Shown here piece after piece: positions 14,537 to 27,381 of a stretch of 64,000 bases of DNA (position 1 is its first letter; every line of letters starts with the position of its first letter). Position numbers and translations under genes: made by a program. The DNA comes from Novosphingobium sp. HII-3 (GTDB lineage Bacteria > Pseudomonadota > Alphaproteobacteria > Sphingomonadales > Sphingomonadaceae). The stretch covers positions 1-64,000 of the forward strand of contig NZ_PPSM01000014.1 of assembly GCF_002916655.1 (NCBI RefSeq), given 5' to 3'. The notes under the pieces are model-generated. The model was not told where the DNA came from, did no database searches, and worked only from the letters and a program-made list of their open reading frames with translations.

Positions 14537-16360
14537 TCAGTTCATTTTCTTGATGAGCCAGCCGAAGGTTCCGCCGCCGCGCGAGACCATGCCCTGCATC
14601 ACGATCTGCTGTGTGGCCTGCGGTCGGCCTTGCCCATCGACCCACAGCGAGTCTTCGACAGTGATTTCGCCGTCCTCGCTCGTCGAACGGAACTGCCAGT
14701 GGCTCCCATCGGGGAGCGACAGCCCTGCGCCGCGTCCATCGGCGCTGAGATTCACATCGACCTCCGGACCCAGGTGGAAGCGGATGGCGAAGCCGACCTT
14801 GCCACGCTTCGCCTTTTTCCCGGTGGGCAGCAGGAGATCCTCGCCGCGCAGCTCCGTGCCGTCGTCGCGCAGCAGAAGGATCCGCTGGTGCGTGAGGCCA
14901 TACCGCGAGGCATAGCCGTTATGGCTGGCTTCGAGCCGCGTGGCGTTGGCGCCGGTTTCCTGTCGCAGCGTCTTGCGATCGACGGCGACTTCGGTAACGC
15001 CCGAGCCGATCATGCCGTTGATGAGGACGGCGGTGGAATTCGCATCGTCCAGGATCAGCGTCGAGTGGGCCGCGGTAGCGCGCAGCCCCTGTTCGAGGCG
15101 CACGGGCACCAGGCCTCCGCCGCTCGCTGCACCGCCGCAGTTCACCACCAGCCGGTGCGGGCCGTGCGACAATTCGAACGCGAGCGTCGAAGCGCAGCCG
15201 AAACGCGCCTGCGAAGGCATCGGCGGCGGCGCGGTGTCGAACTGCAGGATCGACTTGTTCGCCGACACCCGCTGATATCCCCACTGCCGCACGTCGCGCA
15301 ACGGGCGAGCGCGTACTCCGCTCGCGTGGATGAGGGCTTCGACGTCCACGCTGTCGACCGCCCAGCCACCCTGCCACGAGCCCAGCCCGCCATCCCCGTG
15401 CGTGAGGGCGAGGAGAGGGGGGACCAGCAGTTCGAGCACGCGCTCCACCGCCGGTGGAGCGTCGCGGCGCGTGGCGTGATAGCAGTTGCGCAGGCGGATC
15501 AGCAGCGCGATCGCTTCCATCTGGGCCAGCGGGCTACGCGAGAGCACGCCGCCATCGTCGCCCATCAGTTCGCCCAGAGCCCGGATCAGCCCGGCTTCTC
15601 CATAGAGGCGCCGCGCCCGTCCATCGGGCAGGAGCAGTCCGGCCGCGACAATGCCCACCCAGCCGGCCACCTCGGCCAGCCCATCCTCCGCGTTCGTCAC
15701 ATGGCGGTCCAGCCAGCGGGCGGTCGCGGAGATGTGTGCCAGCGTCCGCAGGCGCAGCGCCTTCTCGCCGGAAAGGATCAGCGGAGCATGAGCAAGCCAG
15801 TTCGCCAGGCGTGTGCCGGTGTTGCCGACGCTCCACGCCGGGGCTTTTCCGGGTTTTGGGGCAGGTTTTGGATTTGCCTGCAGCCACGCGCCCAGGATGC
15901 GCTCTGCGACAGGAGCGCCCTGTTCCCGTGGAGCGCAGGCCTCGAGATCCGTAAGCCATGAGAAGGAGTGAACCACCTTCTCGAGCGGGGGCGTCATGCG
16001 GGCGATGCCGGCAAAGTCGATCTGCGCGATCGGCGTCTTGGCGCCGTGGACGAGGAAATGCCCGGCGCGAACGGCGGTGCCGGCCAAGCGGTTGCCGGGG
16101 AGGGTGTTATTGACCGTGGCCAGGAGCCGCGTTCGCCCCTTCGCACCCATGGATCCGGACAGCATCGCGCCTGGCACGCCCAGGCGATAGGCCATGCGCA
16201 GCAGGCGATCACCCATGCCGACGTCGGGAGAGGAGAAATCCACCAGCGCCAGGGCCCGGCCCGGTTCCACATGACCGGGTTGGACACGCTCCATCGCGGG
16301 AACGAAGCCCTGTGAAGCAGGAACACGTGCTCCGCGCTCGCCTAGCGCCATCTCTGCCAT
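14537..16360 (-). CDS. Heparinase II/III family protein
   Basis: 607 residues. The C-terminal ~350 residues resemble the Hepar_II_III fold: ALTHGDGGLGSWQGGW, LVVNCGG, AAHSTLILDDANSTAV and the basic/aromatic NGYASRYGLTHQRILLLRDDG stretch. Members are polysaccharide lyases or related enzymes. No signal peptide is obvious here, which is common for the alphaproteobacterial members near purH and rpe. The start is uncertain. The ATG at 16360 has a strong GGAGG-type ribosome-binding site about 10 bases upstream. A GTG at 16456 overlapping the rpe stop (GTGA) would add 32 residues, but those do not look like protein. Confidence 0.82.
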   Translation of the reverse strand: MAEMALGERGARVPASQGFVPAMERVQPGHVEPGRALALVDFSSPDVGMGDRLLRMAYRLGVPGAMLSGSMGAKGRTRLLATVNNTLPGNRLAGTAVRAGHFLVHGAKTPIAQIDFAGIARMTPPLEKVVHSFSWLTDLEACAPREQGAPVAERILGAWLQANPKPAPKPGKAPAWSVGNTGTRLANWLAHAPLILSGEKALRLRTLAHISATARWLDRHVTNAEDGLAEVAGWVGIVAAGLLLPDGRARRLYGEAGLIRALGELMGDDGGVLSRSPLAQMEAIALLIRLRNCYHATRRDAPPAVERVLELLVPPLLALTHGDGGLGSWQGGWAVDSVDVEALIHASGVRARPLRDVRQWGYQRVSANKSILQFDTAPPPMPSQARFGCASTLAFELSHGPHRLVVNCGGAASGGGLVPVRLEQGLRATAAHSTLILDDANSTAVLINGMIGSGVTEVAVDRKTLRQETGANATRLEASHNGYASRYGLTHQRILLLRDDGTELRGEDLLLPTGKKAKRGKVGFAIRFHLGPEVDVNLSADGRGAGLSLPDGSHWQFRSTSEDGEITVEDSLWVDGQGRPQATQQIVMQGMVSRGGGTFGWLIKKMN

Positions 16361-16452
16361 GTCCGTCGCACCCTCCCCTCCAGCCTGTGACGGAGGAATT
16401 GCTCCGGCTGCATCCGGGTTCCATGTCGCAGGCTGCGGGTGGGTGCGGAGCG

Positions 16453-17121
16453 TCACGGCTGGTCGAGGCCCTTCAGGGTGCGAATGTTGGCGGCATAGTG
16501 CGCCGGGCCGCCCTTGAAGGTTGCCGAACCGGCCACCAGCACGTCGGCACCGGCGTCCACGCATAGCGGGGCCGTGCGCGCATCGACGCCGCCATCGACT
16601 TCGAGGCGGATGTCACGACCCGACTTCTCGATCATCTTGCGCACGGCTTCGATCTTGCGCAGCTGGCTGGTGATGAAGCTCTGCCCGCCGAAGCCCGGAT
16701 TGACGCTCATGATGAGGACGAGGTCGATCTCGTCGATCAGGTAGTCGAGCATCTTGGCCGGGGTTGCAGGGTTCAGCGAAATGCCGGCCTTCTTGCCGAG
16801 GTTGCGGATGGTCTGCACCGTGCGGTGCACGTGCGGCCCTGCTTCAGGGTGGACCGTGATGTAGTCCGCGCCGGCATCCGCGAAAGCTTCCAGGTAGGCG
16901 TCCACAGGGGAGATCATGAGGTGGACGTCGAAGGGCTTGGTGCTGTGCGGCCGCAGGGCCTTCACGACAGCCGGTCCGATCGTGATGTTTGGCACGAAAT
17001 GGCCGTCCATGACGTCGATGTGAATCCAGTCGGCTCCGGCCTCGTCGATGGCGCGGACTTCTTCACCGAGCCGGGCGAAGTCGGCGGAGAGGATGGAGGG
17101 GGATATCAGGGGGACTGTCAT
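16453..17121 (-). CDS. rpe: Ribulose-phosphate 3-epimerase
   Basis: TIM-barrel metalloenzyme interconverting ribulose-5-phosphate and xylulose-5-phosphate in the pentose phosphate pathway. 222 residues. Visible motifs are [16 protein letters not shown] at the start, [17 protein letters not shown] (metal His and catalytic Asp), [17 protein letters not shown] and EVDGGV with the second catalytic Asp. The ATG at 17121 gives the usual length. The gene lies directly upstream of the heparinase-like gene on the same strand and is probably cotranscribed with it. Confidence 0.96.
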
Positions 17122-17389
17122 GGCTGTGTGACCAACGCTCCTTTTCCCCGGGATACGCCACCCCGTCTCGGGCCGACAAGCCGTCTGCACGCCTTTTCCA
17201 CACGCGATCCTGCACGATCGCGGACGGAAGGGCAAAAGCGACCATGATGCGCCGAGCCGAGGCTTTCCTTCGACGAAACAGTGGGTTCAGAGCGTGTTCA
17301 CGGCAACTCGGGCACTAGAAGCCAAGACAAAGGTTGCACATGTCGTGACCGTCTGCTGGGCGGCCGGGATCCACGCGAACAGGATAGAG

Positions 17390-17908
17390 ATGACGAAGAC
17401 TGATTTCAGGACTACTCCGCTGCGGCGGCTACCTTCGGCGCTTGCCCTGGTAGCCATAGCCTGCCTCTTGGGTCCGACGCCTGCGCTGGCGCAGTACCGC
17501 AACGAGATTCGCAATGACCTGCAGCGTTGCCATTCCGACCGGGGCTCCGCCCTTTTAGTCACGGTGGACGGGATCAAGGCGTCGACCGGAAAGATTCGCG
17601 TGCAGTCCTATCGCGCAACGGCAGGGGAGTGGCTGGCCAAGGGCAAGTGGCTTGCCCGCGTCGAGGCTCCCGCCCGTGCCGGCACGATGACCTTCTGCGT
17701 GCCTGTGCCCGCTGCCGGCACTTATGGCATTGCCGTCCGCCATGACGTCAACGGCAACGGCAGCACGGATATCCGGACCGATGGCGGTGCCATGTCCAAC
17801 AACCCCTCGATCAGCATCTTCAATCTCGGGAAGCCCAGCTACACCAAGGTGGGCGTTCCGGTCGGAAACGGCGTCAAGTCCATCCGCGTCCAGATGAAGT
17901 ACATGTAA
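17390..17908 (+). CDS. DUF2141 family exported protein
   Basis: 172 residues with a signal peptide (basic RRLPSALALVAIACLLGP, then PALAQ near residue 30). The mature part matches the DUF2141 pattern: LLVTVDGIKASTGKIRVQSYRA, a two-cysteine pair (RCHSDR ... TFCVPV), then a Ca-loop-like DVNGNGSTDIRTDGGAMSNN and a C-terminal beta strand. Family members are small secreted or periplasmic beta-sandwich proteins without a firmly known function. The gene converges on the nucleotidyltransferase gene, 8 bases apart. Start chosen before the signal peptide; an earlier in-frame start at 17294 adds residues that do not look like protein. Confidence 0.8.
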   Translation: MTKTDFRTTPLRRLPSALALVAIACLLGPTPALAQYRNEIRNDLQRCHSDRGSALLVTVDGIKASTGKIRVQSYRATAGEWLAKGKWLARVEAPARAGTMTFCVPVPAAGTYGIAVRHDVNGNGSTDIRTDGGAMSNNPSISIFNLGKPSYTKVGVPVGNGVKSIRVQMKYM

Positions 17909-17916
17909 GCAGCCGT

Positions 17917-18699
17917 TCAGGCCTTCGCGGTTGCCCGCCGTCGTTCGAGGATGGTGCGGGCGTCCGCAAGGTCTGCCGGTTTGTCGACGTCGACGGCGGC
18001 CAGCCCGTCCCGGGCCGCGACAAGGCTTGCAGACACGCCGATCCTGCGGCCCAGGCGTCCGATGGCTCCCGACAGCGGAAGCCGGCCAAGCGCGTAGCCG
18101 AGCAGCATGCCGGGCCCCAGCCGCGCGGCGATGCGCCACGGGCGTTTCCGGTCCGCCTCCACCGTCTTCCACGTGTCGATGGCAAGACCGGCCCGCGCCG
18201 TAGCGAGCAGGAAGAGGTTGCAGCCGGACCAGTGACCATCCGCGAAGCGCAGATAGGTGCGCCGGCTGCCCGGCATGGCGGCCTCGATCGCGGCCCTGTC
18301 GGCAAGAAGGACCGCCACATCCGCTTCCTGCGGCGCATCGGCGATGAAGTCGCGGACCCACTCGGCCTTCAGTAGCGCATGGTCGCTGGTCGTCACCAGG
18401 AGCGGCGCTCCCAGCGCATCGAGGGCGATGGCGACGCTCGCGCTTGGGCCCGAGCCCGTGGCGAGAACCTCGCAACCGAGCCGCAGCGCCAGATCGCGCA
18501 CCTCCCTGTCACTGGCCGAAACGGCCACCCTGTCGATACCGGCACCGCGCAGGGCAGCTACCACGTGGGCGAGCATGGGGCGCCCGGCGATCTCGACAAG
18601 CGCCTTGTGCGAGACGCCTTCGGCCTGTGCGACCGGATCGGGAGCGCCGGGCCGGGAGCCGGCCAGCACCAGAGCGGCTACAGCGGGAGAAAGGTTCAT
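17917..18699 (-). CDS. NTP transferase (MobA-like) family protein
   Basis: 260 residues with the nucleotidyltransferase Rossmann fold. It starts AALVLAGSRPGAPDPVAQ, followed by HKALVEIAGRPML. This is the N-terminal NTP-binding loop and the conserved Lys of MobA/GlmU-type enzymes, but the usual GxGxR loop is altered and lengthened. TTSDHALL near residue 110 stands where the DxD metal motif usually lies. The start overlaps the upstream gene by ATGA, so the pair is coupled. I infer activation of a small molecule with a nucleotide, for headgroup or surface-polymer synthesis together with the neighbouring lipid kinase; the substrate is unknown. Confidence 0.78.
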   Translation of the reverse strand: MNLSPAVAALVLAGSRPGAPDPVAQAEGVSHKALVEIAGRPMLAHVVAALRGAGIDRVAVSASDREVRDLALRLGCEVLATGSGPSASVAIALDALGAPLLVTTSDHALLKAEWVRDFIADAPQEADVAVLLADRAAIEAAMPGSRRTYLRFADGHWSGCNLFLLATARAGLAIDTWKTVEADRKRPWRIAARLGPGMLLGYALGRLPLSGAIGRLGRRIGVSASLVAARDGLAAVDVDKPADLADARTILERRRATAKA

Positions 18700-19601
18700 G
18701 GTGCACCTGCCTTTTTGCGCCGCCAGACGTGCCAGAGCACGCCGGGCGCGGCAAGGACGGGATGCCGTTCCCGCCAGGGAGTGATGGTGACGGGCACGCC
18801 GGTATGCCGCTCGATCTTCCAGGCGGCATAACGGGCGGCGCCTTCGAAGGTGGTGGAAGCCTTGAGGAGCCGCAGCACGTTGTAAGGCTTCCCGAGACGC
18901 CGGCGCCGGGCCCACCATGCAAGAGTGCGGGCGCGCTGGCCGGTTGAAAGCTGCGGATGGAGCGTCGGTCCCGAGATTTTGAAGGGTATTCCCGCGCTCT
19001 CCAGGGCCAGTGGCAGCAGCCCGTCGAAGTGCGCACGGTTTACGGCCAGGATCGAATCCTCCCGCCCGGCTTTCTCGACACGGAACTCGGCGGCGTAAGT
19101 GGCCCGGAACAAGGCGCGCCAGTAATCCTCTGCGGTTCCGGAGGCGGGGCCCAGCGCAACCGCCAGCCGCGCCGCCGTGCGTGCCGCGCCCGCAACCGCT
19201 GCGGCGATCCCTTCTGCCGCGGCTGCGTCGCGCTGCCAGGCAAGGGCGCTTGGCTGCACGAACCGGGCCCAGATGGTCGTGTCGAGACGTTCGCCGGCAG
19301 CAGCCGAGCGGAAGGTCTCCAGCGCCATCGTCGCCACCTTGGCGCGAAGGGGGACGCCGTTGCAGGACCATTCGTGGTAGCTGACCCGCGGCCACACCCG
19401 CTCTACCTGCGCACCGGGAAGCAGCACATAGAAGTCGAGCACGCCCTCGAGGGAGCCCGTACGCAGGTTCGAGCCGTAGAACACCACGCCGAGAGCCCCG
19501 GCATGGTTGCCGAGCCGCTCGGCGAAGGCGCGAACTTCAGGCATGACCTCACGGGTGAGGGCGGCCGCTATCCGATCTTCGAGAAGAGGCGTGTCAGTCA
19601 T
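18696..19601 (-). CDS. Uncharacterised protein with a nucleotidyltransferase-like motif
   Basis: 301 residues, probably soluble, with a basic C-terminus. Near residue 45 it has GVVFYGSNLRTGSLEGVLDFYVLL, which recalls the GS-x(n)-D motif of polymerase-beta-like nucleotidyltransferases, but only one Asp of the pair is kept, so activity is doubtful. I cannot name a family. It is coupled by ATGA overlap to the MobA-like gene downstream and lies 53 bases from the lipid kinase gene, all on one strand, suggesting one operon of three. The start MTDTPLLEDR is chosen over an ATG ten codons upstream. Confidence 0.65.
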   Translation of the reverse strand: MTDTPLLEDRIAAALTREVMPEVRAFAERLGNHAGALGVVFYGSNLRTGSLEGVLDFYVLLPGAQVERVWPRVSYHEWSCNGVPLRAKVATMALETFRSAAAGERLDTTIWARFVQPSALAWQRDAAAAEGIAAAVAGAARTAARLAVALGPASGTAEDYWRALFRATYAAEFRVEKAGREDSILAVNRAHFDGLLPLALESAGIPFKISGPTLHPQLSTGQRARTLAWWARRRRLGKPYNVLRLLKASTTFEGAARYAAWKIERHTGVPVTITPWRERHPVLAAPGVLWHVWRRKKAGAP

Positions 19602-19654
19602 GCGCGCGTAAGTCGAACAGGCCCGGGCCATTTACAAGCCTTCTGGCGAGCGTG

Positions 19655-20698
19655 TCAGGGAACCACGAAGCTAAGCTGCGGGCCTTCCTCGACGATGTAG
19701 CGACCGGCCGGGAACGCCTCGCCATCGAGGATGAAGGGGCCGCCGATGTCCATCTCCACCATTCTTGCGCTGAAGCGCTGCGCGCCCTTGCGGCTCAGGA
19801 CGGGCAGATTGAAGCCGAACATCATGGCAGGCAGCAGCGCCACCAGCCAGCGGATCGGCGAATCAATGACGGCAAGCTTCAGGCCCGGCGCGGGCGAACG
19901 TCCGAACGGCCTTGCGCCCAAGGGAAACCGTTCGAAAGTGGTCGCGATCGTGAGGTAGCGTTCGTCCGCACTGCCGTCCCCGTGGTAGGGCAGGCGGGCG
20001 CCGCTGTGTGGATCGCTGATGCGCGTGGGGACGCATGCACGCCAGGCGTTGCCGGCGCCGCCGAACAGCGTCTGGATCACACCCCACAAGATGGTGAGGC
20101 CGACCGCGAAGCTGTTGAATGCGCCGCGCCTGTGCGCCTCCTGGCCGGCTTCGGTCGCGATGGTGAACGCGCCGGTGCCAAGGATGAATCCCTGCACGCA
20201 CTGGGTTGATCCATCGGCGGGGGAGATACGCAAAGGGCGGCGCCAGATGGTCTTGCCCCCATTGGCCGCGTGAAGGGCTTCGCTCAGGGACCAGTGATTC
20301 GGCAGGCCGAGATCAACGGCCAGCGCGTTCGTCTTCCCCTTGGGGAGGACGATGAAGGTGGGCCAGTCATCGCGGAAGATGTCGGCGCCGGCGGACAGCA
20401 CGTCGCGCACGGTGCCGTCGCCGCCGTCCACCACGAGATAGTCTATGCCACGCCGCGCGAACTCGGCCAGGGTATAGTGCAGTTCCTGCCGCGTGCGGGG
20501 CGTCTGGGTAAGGATGTTGGAGCAGTCCGCCATCTCCGGGGAGACGCCCTTGTTGCGATGACTGCGGGGATTGCGGACGATACCCACCAGCGGAACGGCG
20601 CGACGGGAGGGGCGGGAAGGGCGGGAATTATCCCGGCTACCAAGCTCACCGAAGATCGGCAGCGTTTCGAAGGAGTGAATGTGTCCGTGCACGGTCAC
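19655..20698 (-). CDS. Diacylglycerol kinase family lipid kinase
   Basis: 347 residues of the DAGK/YegS/sphingosine-kinase fold. The catalytic-domain signature GGDGTVRDVL begins at residue 92. An NPRSHRN stretch near residues 43-49 stands for the upstream phosphate-binding loop, then PKGKTNALA follows (compare PxGTxND/F). ATP-dependent phosphorylation of a lipid hydroxyl is expected. Whether the lipid is diacylglycerol, ceramide or another alcohol cannot be told; sphingomonads make sphingolipids, so ceramide is a candidate. It is the first gene of a minus-strand trio and is divergent from the CDP-alcohol phosphotransferase gene. Confidence 0.82.
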   Translation of the reverse strand: MTVHGHIHSFETLPIFGELGSRDNSRPSRPSRRAVPLVGIVRNPRSHRNKGVSPEMADCSNILTQTPRTRQELHYTLAEFARRGIDYLVVDGGDGTVRDVLSAGADIFRDDWPTFIVLPKGKTNALAVDLGLPNHWSLSEALHAANGGKTIWRRPLRISPADGSTQCVQGFILGTGAFTIATEAGQEAHRRGAFNSFAVGLTILWGVIQTLFGGAGNAWRACVPTRISDPHSGARLPYHGDGSADERYLTIATTFERFPLGARPFGRSPAPGLKLAVIDSPIRWLVALLPAMMFGFNLPVLSRKGAQRFSARMVEMDIGGPFILDGEAFPAGRYIVEEGPQLSFVVP

Positions 20699-20778
20699 TC
20701 ATTTAGTGTCGCTCGTCCGGAAAATCACCCTCAAATAGGGCGTGACACATTTAAGTTACACTTATGTTGCGGTCCGGG

Positions 20779-20805
20779 ACGGGTCTTGCACGAGTGCAGA
20801 CCCGT
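20779..20805 (+). promoter_or_regulatory. Strong hairpin in the leader of the CDP-alcohol phosphotransferase gene
   Basis: Arms 20779-20786 and 20798-20805 are perfect 8-base complements. Inside them GCAC/GTGC (20788-20791, 20794-20797) extends the stem, with one bulged T. It ends 50 bases before the start codon at 20856, in the space between the divergent lipid kinase and phosphotransferase genes. No T-run follows. It could be an operator or an RNA leader structure. Confidence 0.55.
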
Positions 20806-20855
20806 ACCGGCGCAGGGCGATTGTCAGCGCGCCTGCTTGCTTCTAATCCCCATTC

Positions 20856-21992
20856 ATGAAGCAAGATATGAACGTGCTGCCGGTCGTCACGATCGGCGCT
20901 AATCCTGTGAAACTCTGGGGCCTTTCGCCCGCGCAGCGGGTCGGCCGGATAGCCCGCGCGGCCGGCATGAGGCCAACAGAAGATGTCCCTTCGGGCGCGG
21001 CGGTGCTGTCGAACGCCAGGTTCGCCTGGGATCCGGCCTGGTTCGCTAACATCGTGGAGCGGCCCGGGACGGTGTTGACCCTGGGCGGCGTGCCTGCTCT
21101 CGCCCATGCGGCGGATGGCGGTCAGACTGCACGCATCGCCGAGGCCATGGCCCGCGATGTGCCGCTGGAGGACCGCGCGGGCATGGAGCTCATCGCCTTC
21201 GAGGACGGGCCGACGATCGAGAACAAGCAGCTCAGGAAGCGCGAGACGCCCTTTCTCATGGCGCTGACGCCCGATACGCTGCGACCGATCGAGCGAGCCA
21301 GCTACTTCGGCGCCTACAAAGGCGTCACTGACCTCCTGACCAAATACCTCTGGCCGGAATGGGCGCTGGTGCTGACGCGCATCTGCGCAAGGCTTGGCGT
21401 GACGCCCAACATGGTGACGACCGTAGGGGCCGTGTTCTGCGTGGTGGCGACCGTGCTGTTCGCTTACGGCCACTACTGGGCCGGCATGGCGACGGGGCTG
21501 GTGTTCATGGTTCTGGACACGGTGGACGGCAAGCTGGCGCGCTGTACCATCACGTCTTCGGCCTGGGGCAACGTGTTCGATCACGGCATGGATCTTGTCC
21601 ACCCTCCGTTCTGGTGGTGGTTCTGGGCCACCGGCCTCGGCGCCTTGGGGCTGGCCTACGACACCGCGACGTTCTGGTGGGTGCAGGGCGCAATCCAGGG
21701 CGGTTATGTCGTGCAGCGCCTGATCGAGGGCATTTTCATGCGTCAGAACGGTGCGATGCACATCCACGTCTGGCGCCGATTCGACAGCCGCTTCCGCCTC
21801 ATCACGGCACGGCGTAACCCGAACATGGTGATCCTGTTCATCGCGATGGTGTTCTCGCGCCCGGACCTGGGGTTGATCGCCGTCGCGTGGTGGACCGTCA
21901 TCTCCTGCCTCATCCATGCAGTACGGCTGGTCCAGGCCTGGATCGTGCGCGCCCGGGGCGGTATGATCCGCTCCTGGCTGGCGGAGGGCTGA
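20856..21992 (+). CDS. CDP-alcohol phosphatidyltransferase family protein with extra N-terminal domain
   Basis: 378 residues. The catalytic motif DGx2ARx8Gx3Dx3D is complete: D224-G225, A228-R229, G238, D242 and D246, with D221 ahead of it. Hydrophobic helices run from about residue 165 to 360. These enzymes displace CMP from a CDP-alcohol with a second alcohol. Residues 1-150 are an extra soluble domain that recalls, in degenerate form, the nucleotidyltransferase half of bifunctional IPCT/DIPPS proteins; GVTPNMVT before the membrane domain also fits that group. A HIT gene follows 4 bases later, and separate nucleotidyltransferases are nearby. Acceptor and donor are unknown. An ATG at 20868 is an alternative start. 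Confidence 0.85.
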   Translation: MKQDMNVLPVVTIGANPVKLWGLSPAQRVGRIARAAGMRPTEDVPSGAAVLSNARFAWDPAWFANIVERPGTVLTLGGVPALAHAADGGQTARIAEAMARDVPLEDRAGMELIAFEDGPTIENKQLRKRETPFLMALTPDTLRPIERASYFGAYKGVTDLLTKYLWPEWALVLTRICARLGVTPNMVTTVGAVFCVVATVLFAYGHYWAGMATGLVFMVLDTVDGKLARCTITSSAWGNVFDHGMDLVHPPFWWWFWATGLGALGLAYDTATFWWVQGAIQGGYVVQRLIEGIFMRQNGAMHIHVWRRFDSRFRLITARRNPNMVILFIAMVFSRPDLGLIAVAWWTVISCLIHAVRLVQAWIVRARGGMIRSWLAEG

Positions 21993-21996
21993 GGCG

Positions 21997-22425
21997 ATGA
22001 ACGCAACCTGGGAAAAGTTCGGCTGGCCGCAAACGGCGGTTGCCGAATTCCCGCATTGGGTGGTTCTGGCCCGCCCGGCGCAGCCGACGCTGGGCTCCCT
22101 CGTGCTCGCGGCGCGCAGCGAGGCGACGGCGTTCGGTGATCTGCCGGCTGAAGCGCACGCCGAGCTGAAGGCTGCCACGACCGCCATCGAGCGCGCTCTC
22201 GGCCTTGCGGTGGGTTACGCCAGGCTCAATTACCTGATGCTGATGATGGTGGACCCGCACGTCCATTTCCACGTCATTCCCCGTTACGAGGGCGCACGGG
22301 AGTGGAAGGGGCGTACCTTCACCGACCATGGCTGGCCGAAAGTCCCGGACCTGGGGCAGGCGGTTACGCCCGACGATGCGGATCTCGAAGCGCTGGTCGC
22401 CTGGCTGAAAGGCCACTTCGCCTGA
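21997..22425 (+). CDS. HIT family protein (nucleotide hydrolase/transferase)
   Basis: 142 residues with the histidine-triad motif HVHFHVIPRY at residues 88-97 (H88, H90, H92). HIT proteins hydrolyse or transfer nucleotide monophosphates at an alpha-phosphate, for example from dinucleoside polyphosphates or nucleotide-activated small molecules. The gene starts 4 bases after the CDP-alcohol phosphotransferase stop, so it is certainly cotranscribed. A role in recycling or proofreading the nucleotide-activated intermediate of that pathway is plausible but inferred. It is followed by a hairpin before the convergent nucleotidyltransferase. Confidence 0.9.
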   Translation: MNATWEKFGWPQTAVAEFPHWVVLARPAQPTLGSLVLAARSEATAFGDLPAEAHAELKAATTAIERALGLAVGYARLNYLMLMMVDPHVHFHVIPRYEGAREWKGRTFTDHGWPKVPDLGQAVTPDDADLEALVAWLKGHFA

Positions 22426-22432
22426 GGAGAAG

Positions 22433-22453
22433 CGCCCCGGCTTTGCCGGGGCG
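22433..22453. terminator. Bidirectional hairpin between convergent genes
   Basis: A perfect 9-bp GC stem (22433-22441 with 22445-22453) with a TTT loop lies in the 33-base space between the HIT stop and the nucleotidyltransferase stop. There is no T-run, so termination efficiency is uncertain. Confidence 0.6.
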
Positions 22454-22458
22454 TCCGA

Positions 22459-23214
22459 TCACCACGTGTCGGTCAGTCTGGTGGCGATTTCGATGTCGTT
22501 GAGAAAGTCGACTTCGGCCCAGTCCAGCCCCTCGATCGAAACCGTGCCCACCTTTTCGGAGGGCGCAATGGAATCGATCACCTTCAGGTACCAGTGCTGT
22601 ACGCCCTCGGGCGTGCGCATCGCCTGGCGGACGGTCTCCCGGAACAGGTCTGCCCCTTCGCCCCGGAAGGCGAGAAAGCCGATTGATTCGGCATTCGACT
22701 GCGCGGCGGTCAGCGTCTTGCCGATATGAACGAGGCGGCCGGCGGACGTGCGTTCCACCTTCATGTCGTCGCTGTCGTAGCCCTCCGCCTTCACGTCCAC
22801 CGTCACGGTGATCGGCCAGGGCTTGCCGTCAGGACCGGTGGCGCCCTGCTGGACGACCTGCACGATGTCTTCGGACACCAGCGTGTCGCCGTTGAGGATC
22901 AGGAAATCCCCGCGCATGGCTTCACGCGCGATCCAGCATGAACCGAGATTGTCCGCGACCTTGAAGAACGGGTTGAACCTGACGGTGATCTCCACGCGCG
23001 GATCGTGAATGGCGTTGAGGTGCTCTTCGAGCATGTCGGTCATGAAGCCGGTGACGACGTCGATCCGCTTCACGCCGCCGCGGGCCAGCATCTCGATCTG
23101 CCATTCGATCAGCGATCGGCCGGAAAAGTCGATCATGCACTTGGGACGCTCGGCCGTCAGGGGCAGAAGGCGCGAGCCCTGCCCGGCGCTGAGAAGTATG
23201 GCGTGTTCGATCAT
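22459..23214 (-). CDS. NTP transferase family protein (phosphocholine/inositol-phosphate cytidylyltransferase-like)
   Basis: 251 residues. The NTP-binding loop LLSAGQGSRLLPLT is at residues 7-20, followed by the conserved ERPKCM (catalytic-site Lys). NPFFKVADNLGSCWIAREAM near residue 82 and LILNGDTL near 105 (metal Asp) follow. The NLGSCW segment and the short length resemble CTP-dependent cytidylyltransferases that activate phosphocholine or inositol phosphate rather than hexose-1-phosphate enzymes. With the nearby CDP-alcohol phosphotransferase it could supply the CDP-headgroup; this is inference. The gene is divergent from the flippase. Confidence 0.82.
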   Translation of the reverse strand: MIEHAILLSAGQGSRLLPLTAERPKCMIDFSGRSLIEWQIEMLARGGVKRIDVVTGFMTDMLEEHLNAIHDPRVEITVRFNPFFKVADNLGSCWIAREAMRGDFLILNGDTLVSEDIVQVVQQGATGPDGKPWPITVTVDVKAEGYDSDDMKVERTSAGRLVHIGKTLTAAQSNAESIGFLAFRGEGADLFRETVRQAMRTPEGVQHWYLKVIDSIAPSEKVGTVSIEGLDWAEVDFLNDIEIATRLTDTW

Positions 23215-23242
23215 GATCCGGCTTCATTGTGGAGAGAAAGGG

Positions 23243-23254
23243 AAGCGCGCGCTT
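23243..23254. repeat. 12-bp perfect palindrome between divergent nucleotidyltransferase and flippase genes
   Basis: AAGCGCGCGCTT is self-complementary and lies 29 bases upstream of the nucleotidyltransferase start. Similar GCGCGC-rich words recur in the next 60 bases. It may be an operator, but alternating GC runs are common in DNA of this composition. Confidence 0.35.
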
Positions 23255-23380
23255 ACCCTCTGCGCGCCAAAAGGGAAAGCGCGCTGCGGGTGAGCGTGCG
23301 CGCGTTAGGCACAAGAGCACAGGCACAAACGGCAAGGGACACACTTGCAACTGAGAGCACCCTCGTTCAAATGCGAGCCA

Positions 23381-24748
23381 ATGTCCGCCAAACGTAACCG
23401 CCAGGAGAACGCATCTCCGTTGAGGCGGATTCTCCAGAACACGGCCTGGCTGCTCGGCGGCAAGGGCTTCGGTGCAATCTGTGGTCTCGCATATCTTGCC
23501 ATCCTGACGCGAACGCTGGGCCTGAAGGATTTCGGCCACTTTTCGCTCATCTTCGGCACCGCGCAGGCGCTGACCGCGCTTGCGAGCTTTCAGACCTGGC
23601 GCGTCGTGGTGCGCTACGGGTCGGAGCACGTTCACAATGGGGAATGGGGCAAGTTCGGCCGGCTGGGCATGCTGTGCGGCATGCTGGACGCGCTGGGCGC
23701 CGTGCTGGGCAGCGTCCTTGCGGCAGTGCTGATCTATGGCTTCGCCCATGTCCTCGATCTCAACCCCGACTTCGTGGACATCGCCTTCTGGTACTGCGTC
23801 GGTTCGCTATGGGCGCTGGTTTCGGCGCCTACCGGGCTGGTGCGGGCGCTCAACCGCTTCGACATGGCCGTCTACGTAGAGGCGATCGTGCCGAGTGGCC
23901 GGCTTCTTGCCGCGCTGGTGATCTGGCTGACCGGACCGAGCGTCGGGCGGTTCCTCGCAGCCTGGGCGCTGATCGATATTCTCGAGGCCATCCTCTACTG
24001 GATCATGGCCCGGCGGCTGGCCCCCGATGCGCTGCGGTTCTCCAACCTCGCGAAATGGCGCCAGGCGATCCACGAGAACCCGGGCGTGACGCGCTTCTTC
24101 CTCATCACCTACGGCGGGTCGACCATCGATGCCGCGATGAAGAACGGGCCGTTGCTGGTTGTCGGCGGCTGGGTGGGGACGCGGGCTGCGGGCCTTTACC
24201 GCCTCGCCTCCCAGATCTCGCAGGCGCTCAGCAAACTTTCCACTCTGCTCACCCGCTCCGTTTATGCTGAAGTCGCCCGCGTGCGCGTTGCTTCCAAGGC
24301 CGAAGAGTTCCGCAAGCTGGCCATGCAGACCAGCATGATCGCAGGGGCTGCGGGGGTCGTGGTGGTGGTGATCGCCATGCTTGCAGGCGAGACGCTGCTC
24401 GCCATGATCGGCGGCGATGACTTCGAAAGCGGTAGCTCGATCCTGATCCCGCTGGCCATCGCCGCAAGCTTCGATCTCGCAAGCGTCGCCTTCGAGCCGG
24501 TGCTGCATTCAACCGGGCGGGCACGCCATTCGCTCGTCGCGCGGCTCATCGCGCTCGCGGCGCTGGGCGTGGGCCTGTGGCAGTTCATCCCCATCGGGCC
24601 GAGCGGCGCGGCCTGGGCCGTGGCCGTGGCCGGGGCCGTGTCCTACCTTGCGATGGGCATCATGGCCTGGCGCACGCTCAAGCAGGTGGAGGCAGGCAGG
24701 ATTTCGGTCGGCCTCGCCGACGAGGGGGATTTGCCTCCGGCCGAGTGA
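23381..24748 (+). CDS. Polysaccharide/lipid flippase-like membrane protein (MATE/Wzx superfamily)
   Basis: 455 residues with about 12-14 hydrophobic helices and small basic loops, typical of lipopolysaccharide/O-antigen flippases (Polysacc_synt): NTAWLLGGKGFGAICGLAYLA at the start, FGTAQALTALASFQTWRVVVRYG in the second helix pair, and ATGETLL/IGGDDF late in the protein. Such proteins move lipid-linked saccharides or lipids across the inner membrane. The ATG at 23381 (MSAKRNRQE) is chosen over one 12 codons earlier because it keeps a normal basic N-terminus. It is divergent from the cytidylyltransferase-like gene. Confidence 0.85.
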   Translation: MSAKRNRQENASPLRRILQNTAWLLGGKGFGAICGLAYLAILTRTLGLKDFGHFSLIFGTAQALTALASFQTWRVVVRYGSEHVHNGEWGKFGRLGMLCGMLDALGAVLGSVLAAVLIYGFAHVLDLNPDFVDIAFWYCVGSLWALVSAPTGLVRALNRFDMAVYVEAIVPSGRLLAALVIWLTGPSVGRFLAAWALIDILEAILYWIMARRLAPDALRFSNLAKWRQAIHENPGVTRFFLITYGGSTIDAAMKNGPLLVVGGWVGTRAAGLYRLASQISQALSKLSTLLTRSVYAEVARVRVASKAEEFRKLAMQTSMIAGAAGVVVVVIAMLAGETLLAMIGGDDFESGSSILIPLAIAASFDLASVAFEPVLHSTGRARHSLVARLIALAALGVGLWQFIPIGPSGAAWAVAVAGAVSYLAMGIMAWRTLKQVEAGRISVGLADEGDLPPAE

Positions 24749-24788
24749 CCCGGCTCGACAGGGGGACGGCCATGGCTATCATGACGGA

Positions 24789-26003
24789 ATGACCGTCTCC
24801 CTTGCAGCTGATGCCGCCGCCCTGTCCGACCGTATCGTCGCGCTCCGGCGGGCGATTCATGCCGAGCCCGAGATCGGGCTGCATACCCCCCGAACGCGGG
24901 ACAAGATCCGGGCCGCACTTGACCATCTTCCCCTCGAATGGGCGGAGGGCCCCTCCACGACAGGCCTTGTCGCCACGCTGAAGGGCGGTCGGGGAAGCGG
25001 TCGTTGCGTCCTCCTGCGCGGCGACATGGATGCGCTGCCGATGCCGGAGGAGACGGGGCTCGATTTCGCATCCAAGGTGCCGGGCCTGATGCACGCCTGC
25101 GGGCACGACACGCACGTTGCCATGCTGGTGGGCGCCGCGGAGCTTCTGGCGGCGCGGGCGCCGGACATCGCCGGCGAGGTCCGCTTCATGTTCCAACCGG
25201 GCGAGGAAGGTTACCACGGCGCCCGGTTCATGCTGGAAGATGGTCTGCTGGGCGGCGAGAGTGCCGCGCGGCCGCTGCCTGACGCCGCTTTCGCGCTGCA
25301 CATCATGCCGAACGCGCCGCATGGCGTGGTCACCGGCCGGGCGGGGCCATTGATGGCCGCTGCGGACCAGATCCGGATCACGGTTACCGGCCGCGGAGGG
25401 CATGCATCGATGCCGCATGACACGCGCGATCCCGTGCCGGTCGCGTGCGAGATCGTGGGCGCCATCCAGACGATGGTGGCCAGACGCTTCAGCGTCTTCG
25501 ATCCCGTTGTCGTCACCATCGCGAAGATCGAGGCGGGCACCGCGCACAACGTGATACCCGACAGCGCGCATCTCACTGGCACCATGCGCACCCTGTCGCC
25601 GCTCAACCGCTCACGTCTCCGGGACGAACTGCAGCTTCTGGCCGCCGGTATCGCAGGTGCTCACGGGCTGACGGCCGAAACGGAGATCATGCAGGGCTTT
25701 CCCGTCACCCTGTGCGATCCCCGGGCGGTGGACTTCGGTGAGCAGGTTGCCGGCGAAGTCCTGGGAGGCGAGGCGTTCCTGCGTCTCGCCGATCCCATCA
25801 TGGGGGCGGAGGATTTCGCCTATGTGCTTGAAAAAGTGCCGGGCGCCATGTTCTTCCTCGGGGCTAGCCAGGAAGGCGCGGACTGGCGTCAGTGCTGCGG
25901 CATCCACTCCACGAAGATGATGATCGACGAGCGCGTCCTGCCGCGCGGCTCCGCATTCCTTGCAGGACTGGCGAGCCGTTTCCTGCAGAGCGGATGGAAC
26001 TGA
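24789..26003 (+). CDS. M20 family amidohydrolase (hippurate/N-acyl-amino-acid hydrolase-like)
   Basis: 404-residue zinc peptidase-family enzyme, probably cytoplasmic. Seen in order are RRAIHAEPEIG, the metal motif GDMDALPM, HACGHDTHVAML with metal His residues, QPGEEGYHGA with the catalytic Glu pair, the dimerisation-domain stretch VTGRGGHASMPHDTRDPV, and PIMGAEDFAYVLEKVPGAMFFLG near the end. This is the HipO/IAA-amino-acid hydrolase subgroup, which splits N-acyl amino acids. The start ATG at 24789 fits the family; earlier in-frame starts lie within the flippase. Substrate not determinable. Confidence 0.92.
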   Translation: MTVSLAADAAALSDRIVALRRAIHAEPEIGLHTPRTRDKIRAALDHLPLEWAEGPSTTGLVATLKGGRGSGRCVLLRGDMDALPMPEETGLDFASKVPGLMHACGHDTHVAMLVGAAELLAARAPDIAGEVRFMFQPGEEGYHGARFMLEDGLLGGESAARPLPDAAFALHIMPNAPHGVVTGRAGPLMAAADQIRITVTGRGGHASMPHDTRDPVPVACEIVGAIQTMVARRFSVFDPVVVTIAKIEAGTAHNVIPDSAHLTGTMRTLSPLNRSRLRDELQLLAAGIAGAHGLTAETEIMQGFPVTLCDPRAVDFGEQVAGEVLGGEAFLRLADPIMGAEDFAYVLEKVPGAMFFLGASQEGADWRQCCGIHSTKMMIDERVLPRGSAFLAGLASRFLQSGWN

Positions 26004-26379: not shown

Positions 26380-27381
26380 ATGGACATGCAGTTCACCTCC
26401 GACAATGCCGCCGCCGTTCATCCGGCCGTGTGGAAAGCCATGATGGCCGCTGATGCCGCCGACGCGCCTTACGATGGCGACCGTCTGAGCCGGCATCTGG
26501 ACGAGACCTTCTCCGCCCTGTTCGGGCGGGAATGCGCCGTGCTCTGGGTCGCCACGGGCACCGCAGCCAACTGCCTTGCGCTTTCGGCGCTGGTGGCGCC
26601 GCACGGTGCGGTTGTCTGCCACCGGGAAGCGCATATCGAGATGGATGAGGCGGGGGCTCCGGGGTTCTATCTCCATGGTGCGAAGCTGCTCCTGGCCGAC
26701 GGTGACGACGCCAAGGTCACGCCGCGGACGCTCGCCGCCGTGGTCGATCCGATTCGCGACGATGTTCACCAGGTCCAGCCGCACGCCATCTCGATCACCC
26801 AGGCGAGCGAATATGGCTGCGTCTATCGACCGGAGGAAGTTGCCGCCATCGCCGCCTTCGCCCGGGGCCGAGGTCTCGGTCTTCACATGGACGGTGCGCG
26901 GTTCGCCAACGCCGTGGCCTATCTCGGCTGCTCTGCCTCGGAAGCGGCCGGTGATATCGATGCGCTGAGCTTCGGCTTCGTCAAGAACGGCGGCCTCGGC
27001 GCTGAAGCGATCGTGTTCTTCGATGGCGAGGCGGCGAAGGCCGTCCGCTATCGCCGCAAGCGGGCCGGGCACCTGCAGTCGAAAGGCCGTTTTCTCGCCG
27101 CGCAGATCCTCGCCATGATCGAAGGCGACCTGTGGCTGGAAAACGCGCGCGCCGCCAATGCAGCCGCCGCTGTGCTGGCCGCCGCCGCGCCCGAGCGCCT
27201 GCTGCATCCCGTAGAGGCAAACGAGGTCTTCTTCGCCTGCACGGCCGCCGAACGCGAGGCGCTGCGGGCGCAAGGCTTCGCCTTCTACGACTGGGGAGCC
27301 GATGCGGCACGGCTCGTCACCGCGTGGGACGCGCGGGACGAGCATGTCAGCGCCCTGTCGCGGGCACTTGCCGGACTATGA
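26380..27381 (+). CDS. ltaE: Low-specificity L-threonine aldolase
   Basis: PLP enzyme splitting threonine or allo-threonine into glycine and acetaldehyde; 333 residues. The family start FTSDNAAAVHPAVWKAM, the cofactor region ATGTAANCLALSAL, HIEMDEAG, the conserved HMDGARFANA (PLP-contacting Asp) near residue 168 and SFGFVKNGG with the Schiff-base Lys near residue 206 are visible. The stop overlaps the start of a DMT transporter by ATGA, so the two are coupled and may function together in amino-acid metabolism and export. An ATG two codons downstream is an alternative start. Confidence 0.92.
   Translation: MDMQFTSDNAAAVHPAVWKAMMAADAADAPYDGDRLSRHLDETFSALFGRECAVLWVATGTAANCLALSALVAPHGAVVCHREAHIEMDEAGAPGFYLHGAKLLLADGDDAKVTPRTLAAVVDPIRDDVHQVQPHAISITQASEYGCVYRPEEVAAIAAFARGRGLGLHMDGARFANAVAYLGCSASEAAGDIDALSFGFVKNGGLGAEAIVFFDGEAAKAVRYRRKRAGHLQSKGRFLAAQILAMIEGDLWLENARAANAAAAVLAAAAPERLLHPVEANEVFFACTAAEREALRAQGFAFYDWGADAARLVTAWDARDEHVSALSRALAGL

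Follow-up and report, generated by a model that had tools for sequence, protein, structure and literature searches.

The closest described counterpart of the genes analyzed here is the Caulobacter cluster CC_1152-CC_1168, mutants of which lose the ceramide lipid CPG and/or ceramide-diphosphoglycerate (CPG2) (Olea-Ozuna et al. 2024, PMC11324152). In Caulobacter, CpgB has been assayed and is a ceramide kinase (PMC10331486), and CpgD makes CDP-glycerate in vitro (PMC12275187) and has been crystallized (PMC13228409). The pathway genes are needed for polymyxin sensitivity of Caulobacter, and orthologues have been reported in Sphingomonas wittichii (PMC11324152); CPG2 also helps Caulobacter to survive without lipopolysaccharide (PMC12275187). 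Here, we describe seven adjacent genes (positions 17917-24748) in the first 64,000 nucleotides of contig NZ_PPSM01000014.1 of Novosphingobium sp. HII-3 (hereafter, the window), which very probably supply the headgroup enzymes and the flippase of the CPG2 pathway and lie in a chromosomal slot that is otherwise filled, within the genus, by a CPG-only or a predicted inositol cassette. New in this study are the Tam41-like fold of CpgC, the co-occurrence of a HIT-domain protein with CpgA, and the slot with alternative headgroup cassettes, the last of which is the part worth following.

Gene content of the cassette and its match to Caulobacter

An earlier note, made from the DNA letters without database searches, had described seven neighboring genes that together make up one lipid-headgroup pathway. 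When the genes were read as open frames and searched with Pfam and NCBIfam models, all seven were found, adjacent to each other, on the strands and in the families given there (Table 1), with complete motifs in the kinase, the CDP-alcohol transferase (D..DG..AR........G...D...D) and the HIT protein. The CofC-like gene and the cpgC orthologue share 25 bases, the start of the former lying within the end of the latter, and the HIT gene starts 4 bases downstream of the cpgA orthologue. The true start of the kinase is probably downstream of the listed GTG, near 20590, because the part homologous to CpgB starts near 20587.

When named genomes were scanned with an alignment of the window CDP-alcohol transferase, a locus of Caulobacter vibrioides DSM 9893 (L141) was among those found, in which the counterparts of all seven window genes sit together. 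Identities to the L141 proteins are listed in Table 1; over all comparisons they range from 53 to 54% for CC_1153, 51 to 54% for CpgC, 43 to 45% for CpgB and 51 to 52% for CpgD. Judged by order and family rather than by locus tag, the window genes would correspond to CC_1153, CC_1161 (CpgC), CC_1160 (CpgB), CC_1159 (CpgA), CC_1157 (HIT), CC_1152 (CpgD) and CC_1166 (flippase); this numbering is used because the gene order of L141 fits the published CC_1152-CC_1168 map. In the reverse direction, queries with the C. vibrioides CpgB, CpgC, CpgD, HIT and CC_1153 proteins found the window genes as the best or only matches in their own genome. The kinase is the sole match of CpgB at E≤1e-10 and the CofC-like gene the sole match of CC_1153 at E≤1e-8, and the CpgD query gave the window gene at E 7.9e-70, with the next match at 5.9e-11. 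A general YegS-type kinase was considered and rejected, the other DAGK gene (L006) being unmatched by CpgB at E≤1e-10.

The AlphaFold2 model of the CpgA orthologue has a mean predicted local distance difference test (pLDDT) score of 94.4, and its top Foldseek match is AF2299 (E 4.6e-10); IPCT-DIPPS is also among the structures that align with it, AF2299 being the best. Both of these proteins carry an extramembrane domain. When compared with Protein Data Bank (PDB) sequences, the CpgD orthologue gave 28 nucleotidyltransferase matches at E≤0.001, none of which is named CpgD.

Judged from its genes, the cassette is a sphingomonad member of the described CPG2 pathway. The earlier idea of a single headgroup pathway is borne out by this gene-for-gene match, and the anionic phosphosphingolipid guessed there is the likely product. 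What does not stand is the claim that the pathway is undescribed and that no known operon has this content, since the Caulobacter cluster has the same content (PMC11324152, PMC10331486, PMC12275187).

Conservation and co-occurrence in other genomes

Conservation was examined in named loci, namely the best 80 of at least 569 confirmed places, ranked by likeness to one alphaproteobacterial protein (from L067) and hence not a random sample. The 47 loci longer than 20 kb, all brought in by the CpgA query, were scored for matches at E≤1e-6. CpgC and the phosphoesterase were present in all 47, CC_1153, LptF2 and LptG2 in 46 each, CerS in 45, CpgB and CerR in 42 each, HIT in 40, AasR in 39, serine palmitoyltransferase (Spt) in 38, CpgD and AcpR in 37 each, and the flippase in 22, where the counts for LptF2, LptG2, CerR and AasR may take in paralogues. 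The CpgA-CpgB-CpgC block has ceramide genes nearby in most of these loci (e.g., Spt in 38/47), and the named loci with conserved synteny span alpha-, beta- and gammaproteobacteria. A class-wide search detected the transferase at E≤1e-10 in 24 of 385 genomes, including its own.

Some alphaproteobacteria carry CDP-alcohol transferase paralogues near the cluster (L067:13127-14338 and L066:11696-12991, about 33-35% identical to CpgA). These are candidate enzymes for the first transfer, a step that is otherwise missing. In one alphaproteobacterium, a gene for a fatty-acid hydroxylase (PF04116, L067:14450-15235) was also observed inside the ceramide cluster.

Among 61 related genomes, strong CpgA (E<1e-60) occurs in 17, HIT in 17, strong CpgD (E<1e-40) in 18, CpgC in 35 and CpgB in 36, the two cut-offs being our own and placed at clear gaps. 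The genomes with CpgA all fall within the CpgC set, which contains a further 18 genomes that lack CpgA. Spt is matched at E≤1e-30 in 61/61 genomes and convincingly in 60 of them (the sole match in G048, 34% identical with E 2.7e-54, is paralogue-like). Of the genomes from other families, 20 carry CpgC, and in 18 of these cpgC lies less than 2 kb from spt, as counted by hand from coordinates.

The HIT set and the strong-CpgA set are the same 17 of the 61 genomes. Linkage alone does not explain this match, because HIT and CpgA are far apart in two genomes of one genus (G045 and G051), and a Fisher value for it would not be a fair probability because the 61 genomes are kin. From this co-occurrence, the HIT protein likely serves the CPG2 branch, and the data suggest adding it there. 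In Caulobacter, the HIT gene was judged probably unrelated, and Zymomonas mobilis is reported to lack both CC_1159 and CC_1157 (PMC11324152), a joint absence that agrees with the co-occurrence of CpgA and HIT.

A chromosomal slot with alternative headgroup cassettes

The genus sample comprised 37 genomes, including that of the window, and the heparinase gene was used to mark the site. In these genomes, the slot lies between the heparinase gene and the adjacent epimerase gene, whose product we take from its sequence to be ribulose-phosphate 3-epimerase (RPE), on one side and the M20 and lyase genes on the other. A CPG2-type set is present in 10 genomes (own included), with the seven genes together in seven, split over two contigs in G022, and reduced to five of the seven in G005 and G007, in which CpgD is found at another place on that contig. 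That all seven genes stand together in 7/10 CPG2 genomes of the same genus shows that the grouping goes beyond chance; the neighborhood conservation proposed as a check in the earlier note was thus found in the genus as well as in the 47 long loci. Five genomes have a CPG-only set (kinase, CpgC, flippase and CofC-like gene), the last two genes being distant except in G002, whose cassette resembles the CPG2 cassette without CpgA, HIT and CpgD. A further 20 genomes have an inositol set, consisting of inositol-1-phosphate synthase (PF01658, 2.5e-35), an NTP-transferase and one or two CDP-alcohol transferases.

Both flanks are visible in 21 stretches (7 CPG2, 4 CPG-only and 10 inositol), and the set lies between them in 21/21, although the stretches were taken from the heparinase gene towards the expected side, which favors finding the cassette and the far flank together. 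Among the 20 inositol genomes, both flanks were seen in 10 and only the heparinase side in 9, and in G009 the set is on the other side of the heparinase gene (rearranged). In G001, the inositol set is on another contig and the slot runs into the end of a contig; no set was assigned to G017, the sets of G022 and G026 are spread over more than one contig, and the heparinase gene of G020 is split. Cassettes of both kinds together were seen in no fetched slot stretch. The cassette-type inositol-phosphate synthase (≥83% identity) occurs in 21 of the 37 genomes, in 0/10 CPG2 and in 0/5 CPG-only genomes. A more distant copy is found elsewhere in three CPG2 genomes (own, G005 and G025); in the window genome, it is the sole match, lies far from the cassette (C14:684771-685844) and is 63% identical to the cassette type. 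A phosphoinositol-type lipid, the other guess of the earlier note, does not fit the window cassette, which has no inositol-phosphate synthase; the predicted inositol cassette nevertheless fills the same slot in related genomes.

Table 1. Features of the cassette, its flanks and the alternative cassette. Coordinates refer to the window unless a locus is named; percentages are amino acid identities.
Feature	Coordinates	Strand	Evidence
CofC/MobA-like NTP-transferase, CC_1153 orthologue	17917..18720	-	Pfam NTP_transf_3 2.2e-18; 53% to L141
CpgC orthologue (CC_1161), 311 residues, predicted Tam41-type cytidylyltransferase	18696..19631	-	51% to L141; fold model
CpgB orthologue (CC_1160), putative ceramide kinase	19655..20698	-	DAGK_cat 7.4e-11; GGDGT; 43% to L141, 43-45% to CpgB
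CpgA orthologue (CC_1159), CDP-alcohol phosphotransferase, N-terminal extramembrane domain	20856..21992	+	CDP-OH_P_transf 4.7e-9; 45% to L141
HIT-domain protein	21997..22425	+	HIT 2e-4; H.H.H motif; 54% to L141 HIT gene
CpgD orthologue (CC_1152), putative CTP:phosphoglycerate cytidylyltransferase	22459..23214	-	NTP_transferase 1.7e-14; 51% (range 51-52%) to L141
Polysacc_synt (Wzx-like) flippase, CC_1166 counterpart	23345..24748	+	Polysacc_synt 1.1e-12; 27% to L141, 30% to L104 flippase
Slot flank, heparinase II/III-like protein	14537..16564	-	Pfam 1.2e-61; slot anchor in genus
Slot flank, epimerase open frame	16453..17235	-	open frame; flank kept in genus
Slot flank, DUF2141 protein	17294..17908	+	PF09912 6.5e-21; at slot in most genus genomes
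Far flank, M20 peptidase/amidohydrolase	24648..26003	+	PF01546 6.3e-39
Far flank, beta-eliminating lyase/aldolase	26380..27381	+	PF01212 6e-55
Predicted inositol-headgroup cassette	L173:5975-10089; L174:5558-9738; slot stretches L180-L214		same slot as window cassette

On the Spt tree, the three cassette types need 5 changes, compared with a shuffled mean of 13.6 (phosphoglycerate versus inositol needs 2), although this tree is weak, with 18 of its 36 inner forks open; on the heparinase tree they need 4, compared with 13.3. Such small numbers of changes imply few switches, with types mostly following clades, and free shuffling of cassettes is not supported. The DUF2141 protein is 59-80% identical to that of the window in CPG2 genomes and 27-34% identical or undetected in inositol genomes, and because of this difference its gene may belong to the exchanged unit.

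Among the 61 related genomes, those with a relative of CC_1153 are the same 35 that have CpgC. In the 18 genomes without CpgA, these relatives are mostly distant (28-36% identity; 51% in G002), and the close type (51-56%) is confined, within the genus, to the 10 CPG2 genomes and G002. Besides the slot copy, several CPG2 genomes have a more divergent CC_1153-like gene elsewhere (30-34%; e.g., G005:C1:2708668-2709381), about as distant as the sole copy of the CPG-only genomes. A role of CC_1153 in the first (CPG) branch was considered and dropped, as the distant matches may be another paralogue.

Heaver et al. (2022, PMC9246714) describe two ceramide lipids, one of the inositol type from N. acidiphilum and the other phosphohexose-like and from S. 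paucimobilis, neither of them with a known cluster in that account. The inositol cassette, whose product we infer from its genes to have an inositol headgroup, offers candidate genes for these lipids, whose pathway was open in 2022 (PMC9246714). A broader proposal, for which we see the prospects as evenly poised, is that the slot is a headgroup-switch locus: it would hold a CPG2, a CPG-only or an inositol cassette, and exchange of the cassette would change the acidic lipid of the envelope, with the inositol version providing the candidate genes for the S. paucimobilis and N. acidiphilum lipids, CpgC making CDP-ceramide and the HIT protein working in the CPG2 branch. Among the open-licence papers listed for sphingomonad inositol or CPG lipids, none describes the slot in its title or the opening lines of its abstract.

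Certain sphingomonads have no lipopolysaccharide and rely on sphingolipids, so that a compact, apparently exchangeable CPG2 cassette in these bacteria opens the role of the lipid to tests by deletion and cassette exchange.

Predicted structure of CpgC

The CpgC orthologue has no Pfam match at E≤10 and no NCBIfam match, and therefore no sequence match to the Tam41 family model; no PDB sequence was matched significantly in a profile search (best E 0.46). Its AlphaFold2 model, built from 61 sequences, has a mean pLDDT of 92.5, and Foldseek ranked Tam41 (6ig4) first, with E 3.1e-8 and template modeling (TM) scores of 0.50/0.55 for 6ig4_A. Structural alignment by VIA gave Z 17.3 to bacterial Tam41 7ecd (216 aligned residues, model residues 26-262) and 15.9 and 15.6 to two further Tam41 entries, compared with 9.2 for the best other nucleotidyltransferase. 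In the alignment, D66 is invariant, with Y68 two places on, in 61/61 rows, which, compared by description, is in keeping with Tam41 (PMC11646218).

In Tam41 itself, a single acidic residue remains of the three canonical to its fold (PMC11646218). The motif that the earlier note called remnant reads better as a Tam41-type site than as decay. An InterPro hint of CDP-diacylglycerol synthase has been published for CC_1161 (PMC11324152), which agrees with a Tam41-like fold. By its model, CpgC is Tam41-like in overall fold and not a Tam41 family member; the wording is restricted to fold because there is no Pfam match, and a fold alone is no proof of function. We propose that the predicted fold supports a CDP-ceramide step, in which ceramide-1-phosphate and CTP would give CDP-ceramide, and this gives an enzyme of unknown mechanism a concrete assay.

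Proposed pathway and alternative explanations

In the proposed pathway, CpgB would phosphorylate ceramide, as others have shown in Caulobacter, and CpgC, as a Tam41-type enzyme, would activate ceramide-1-phosphate with CTP, probably to CDP-ceramide. Glycerate or phosphoglycerate would then be joined by a further transferase to give CPG. CpgD would convert CTP and phosphoglycerate into CDP-glycerate, as in vitro in Caulobacter, from which CpgA, following Caulobacter genetics, would move phosphoglycerate onto CPG to form CPG2. The CofC-like protein would be a second nucleotidyltransferase, required for CPG2 in Caulobacter, and the HIT protein, placed in the CPG2 branch by its co-occurrence, would perhaps clear or remodel nucleotide intermediates. 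The flippase presumably carries the lipid across the inner membrane.

Several points weigh against this assignment. The reverse queries in the window genome covered five proteins, without Caulobacter CpgA and the flippase, and the flippase match is weak. The CC_1158 metallophosphoesterase, LptC2/F2/G2 and ceramide synthase have no match in the window, and the rest of the genome was not searched for them; CC_1158 is reported to be absent in S. wittichii and partly dispensable in Caulobacter (PMC11324152). The genome's own spt (C14:92046-93173, 52% identity, E 4.8e-133) is about 67 kb from the cassette, and HIT is missing from the stretch in 7 of the 47 long CpgA loci, so that outside this order it is not always beside CpgA.

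Among the alternatives, the same enzymes might act on another headgroup, with the CpgD and CpgA orthologues using another phospho-acid or polyol to make a related new anionic ceramide lipid. Identity to L141 of only 43-54%, the different substrates of related COG1213 cytidylyltransferases (PMC12275187) and the matches of CpgA to inositol-phosphate transferase models, far below their cut-offs, would allow for this; however, the set is conserved one-to-one with the Caulobacter cluster, and we consider this alternative improbable. It is still harder to credit that diacylglycerol is the substrate of the kinase and transferase, giving a glycerophospholipid rather than a sphingolipid. DAGK_cat is the curated family matched (YegS-type models match below cut-off) and Tam41 acts on phosphatidic acid (PMC7018664), but the kinase is orthologous to one with demonstrated ceramide activity, and cpgC and Spt keep the company described above (18/20 genomes; 38/47 loci). 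Least credible of all is a chance gathering of unrelated envelope genes of polysaccharide or nucleotide metabolism: polysaccharide loci often contain members of the flippase and NTP-transferase families, but synteny is kept in the genus and in the named alpha-, beta- and gammaproteobacterial loci, and the occurrences of CpgA and HIT match.

Comparison with known systems

Compared with the Caulobacter cluster CC_1152-CC_1168, the window cassette has all seven counterparts, and CpgA, CpgB and CpgC are neighbors in both. It differs in holding only headgroup and flippase genes, with no ceramide genes alongside, and in its arrangement, as the genes for CpgB and CpgC lie on the strand opposite to that of cpgA, and HIT directly follows cpgA. 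S. wittichii, another sphingomonad, has the same gene families, with its ceramide and transport genes scattered; alternative cassettes are not discussed in section 9 of that account (PMC11324152). The CDP-diacylglycerol synthase Tam41 (6ig4, 6ig2 and 7ecd) resembles the CpgC orthologue in predicted fold and perhaps in the one invariant acid of its motif, whereas the CpgC orthologue is only 12-14% identical to it, has no Pfam match and would act on ceramide-1-phosphate. Finally, the inositol-phosphate synthase, NTP-transferase and CDP-alcohol transferase of the Bacteroidetes inositol-lipid clusters (PMC9246714) are similar to the alternative cassette found in the slot, and the window cassette differs from them in having no inositol-phosphate synthase.

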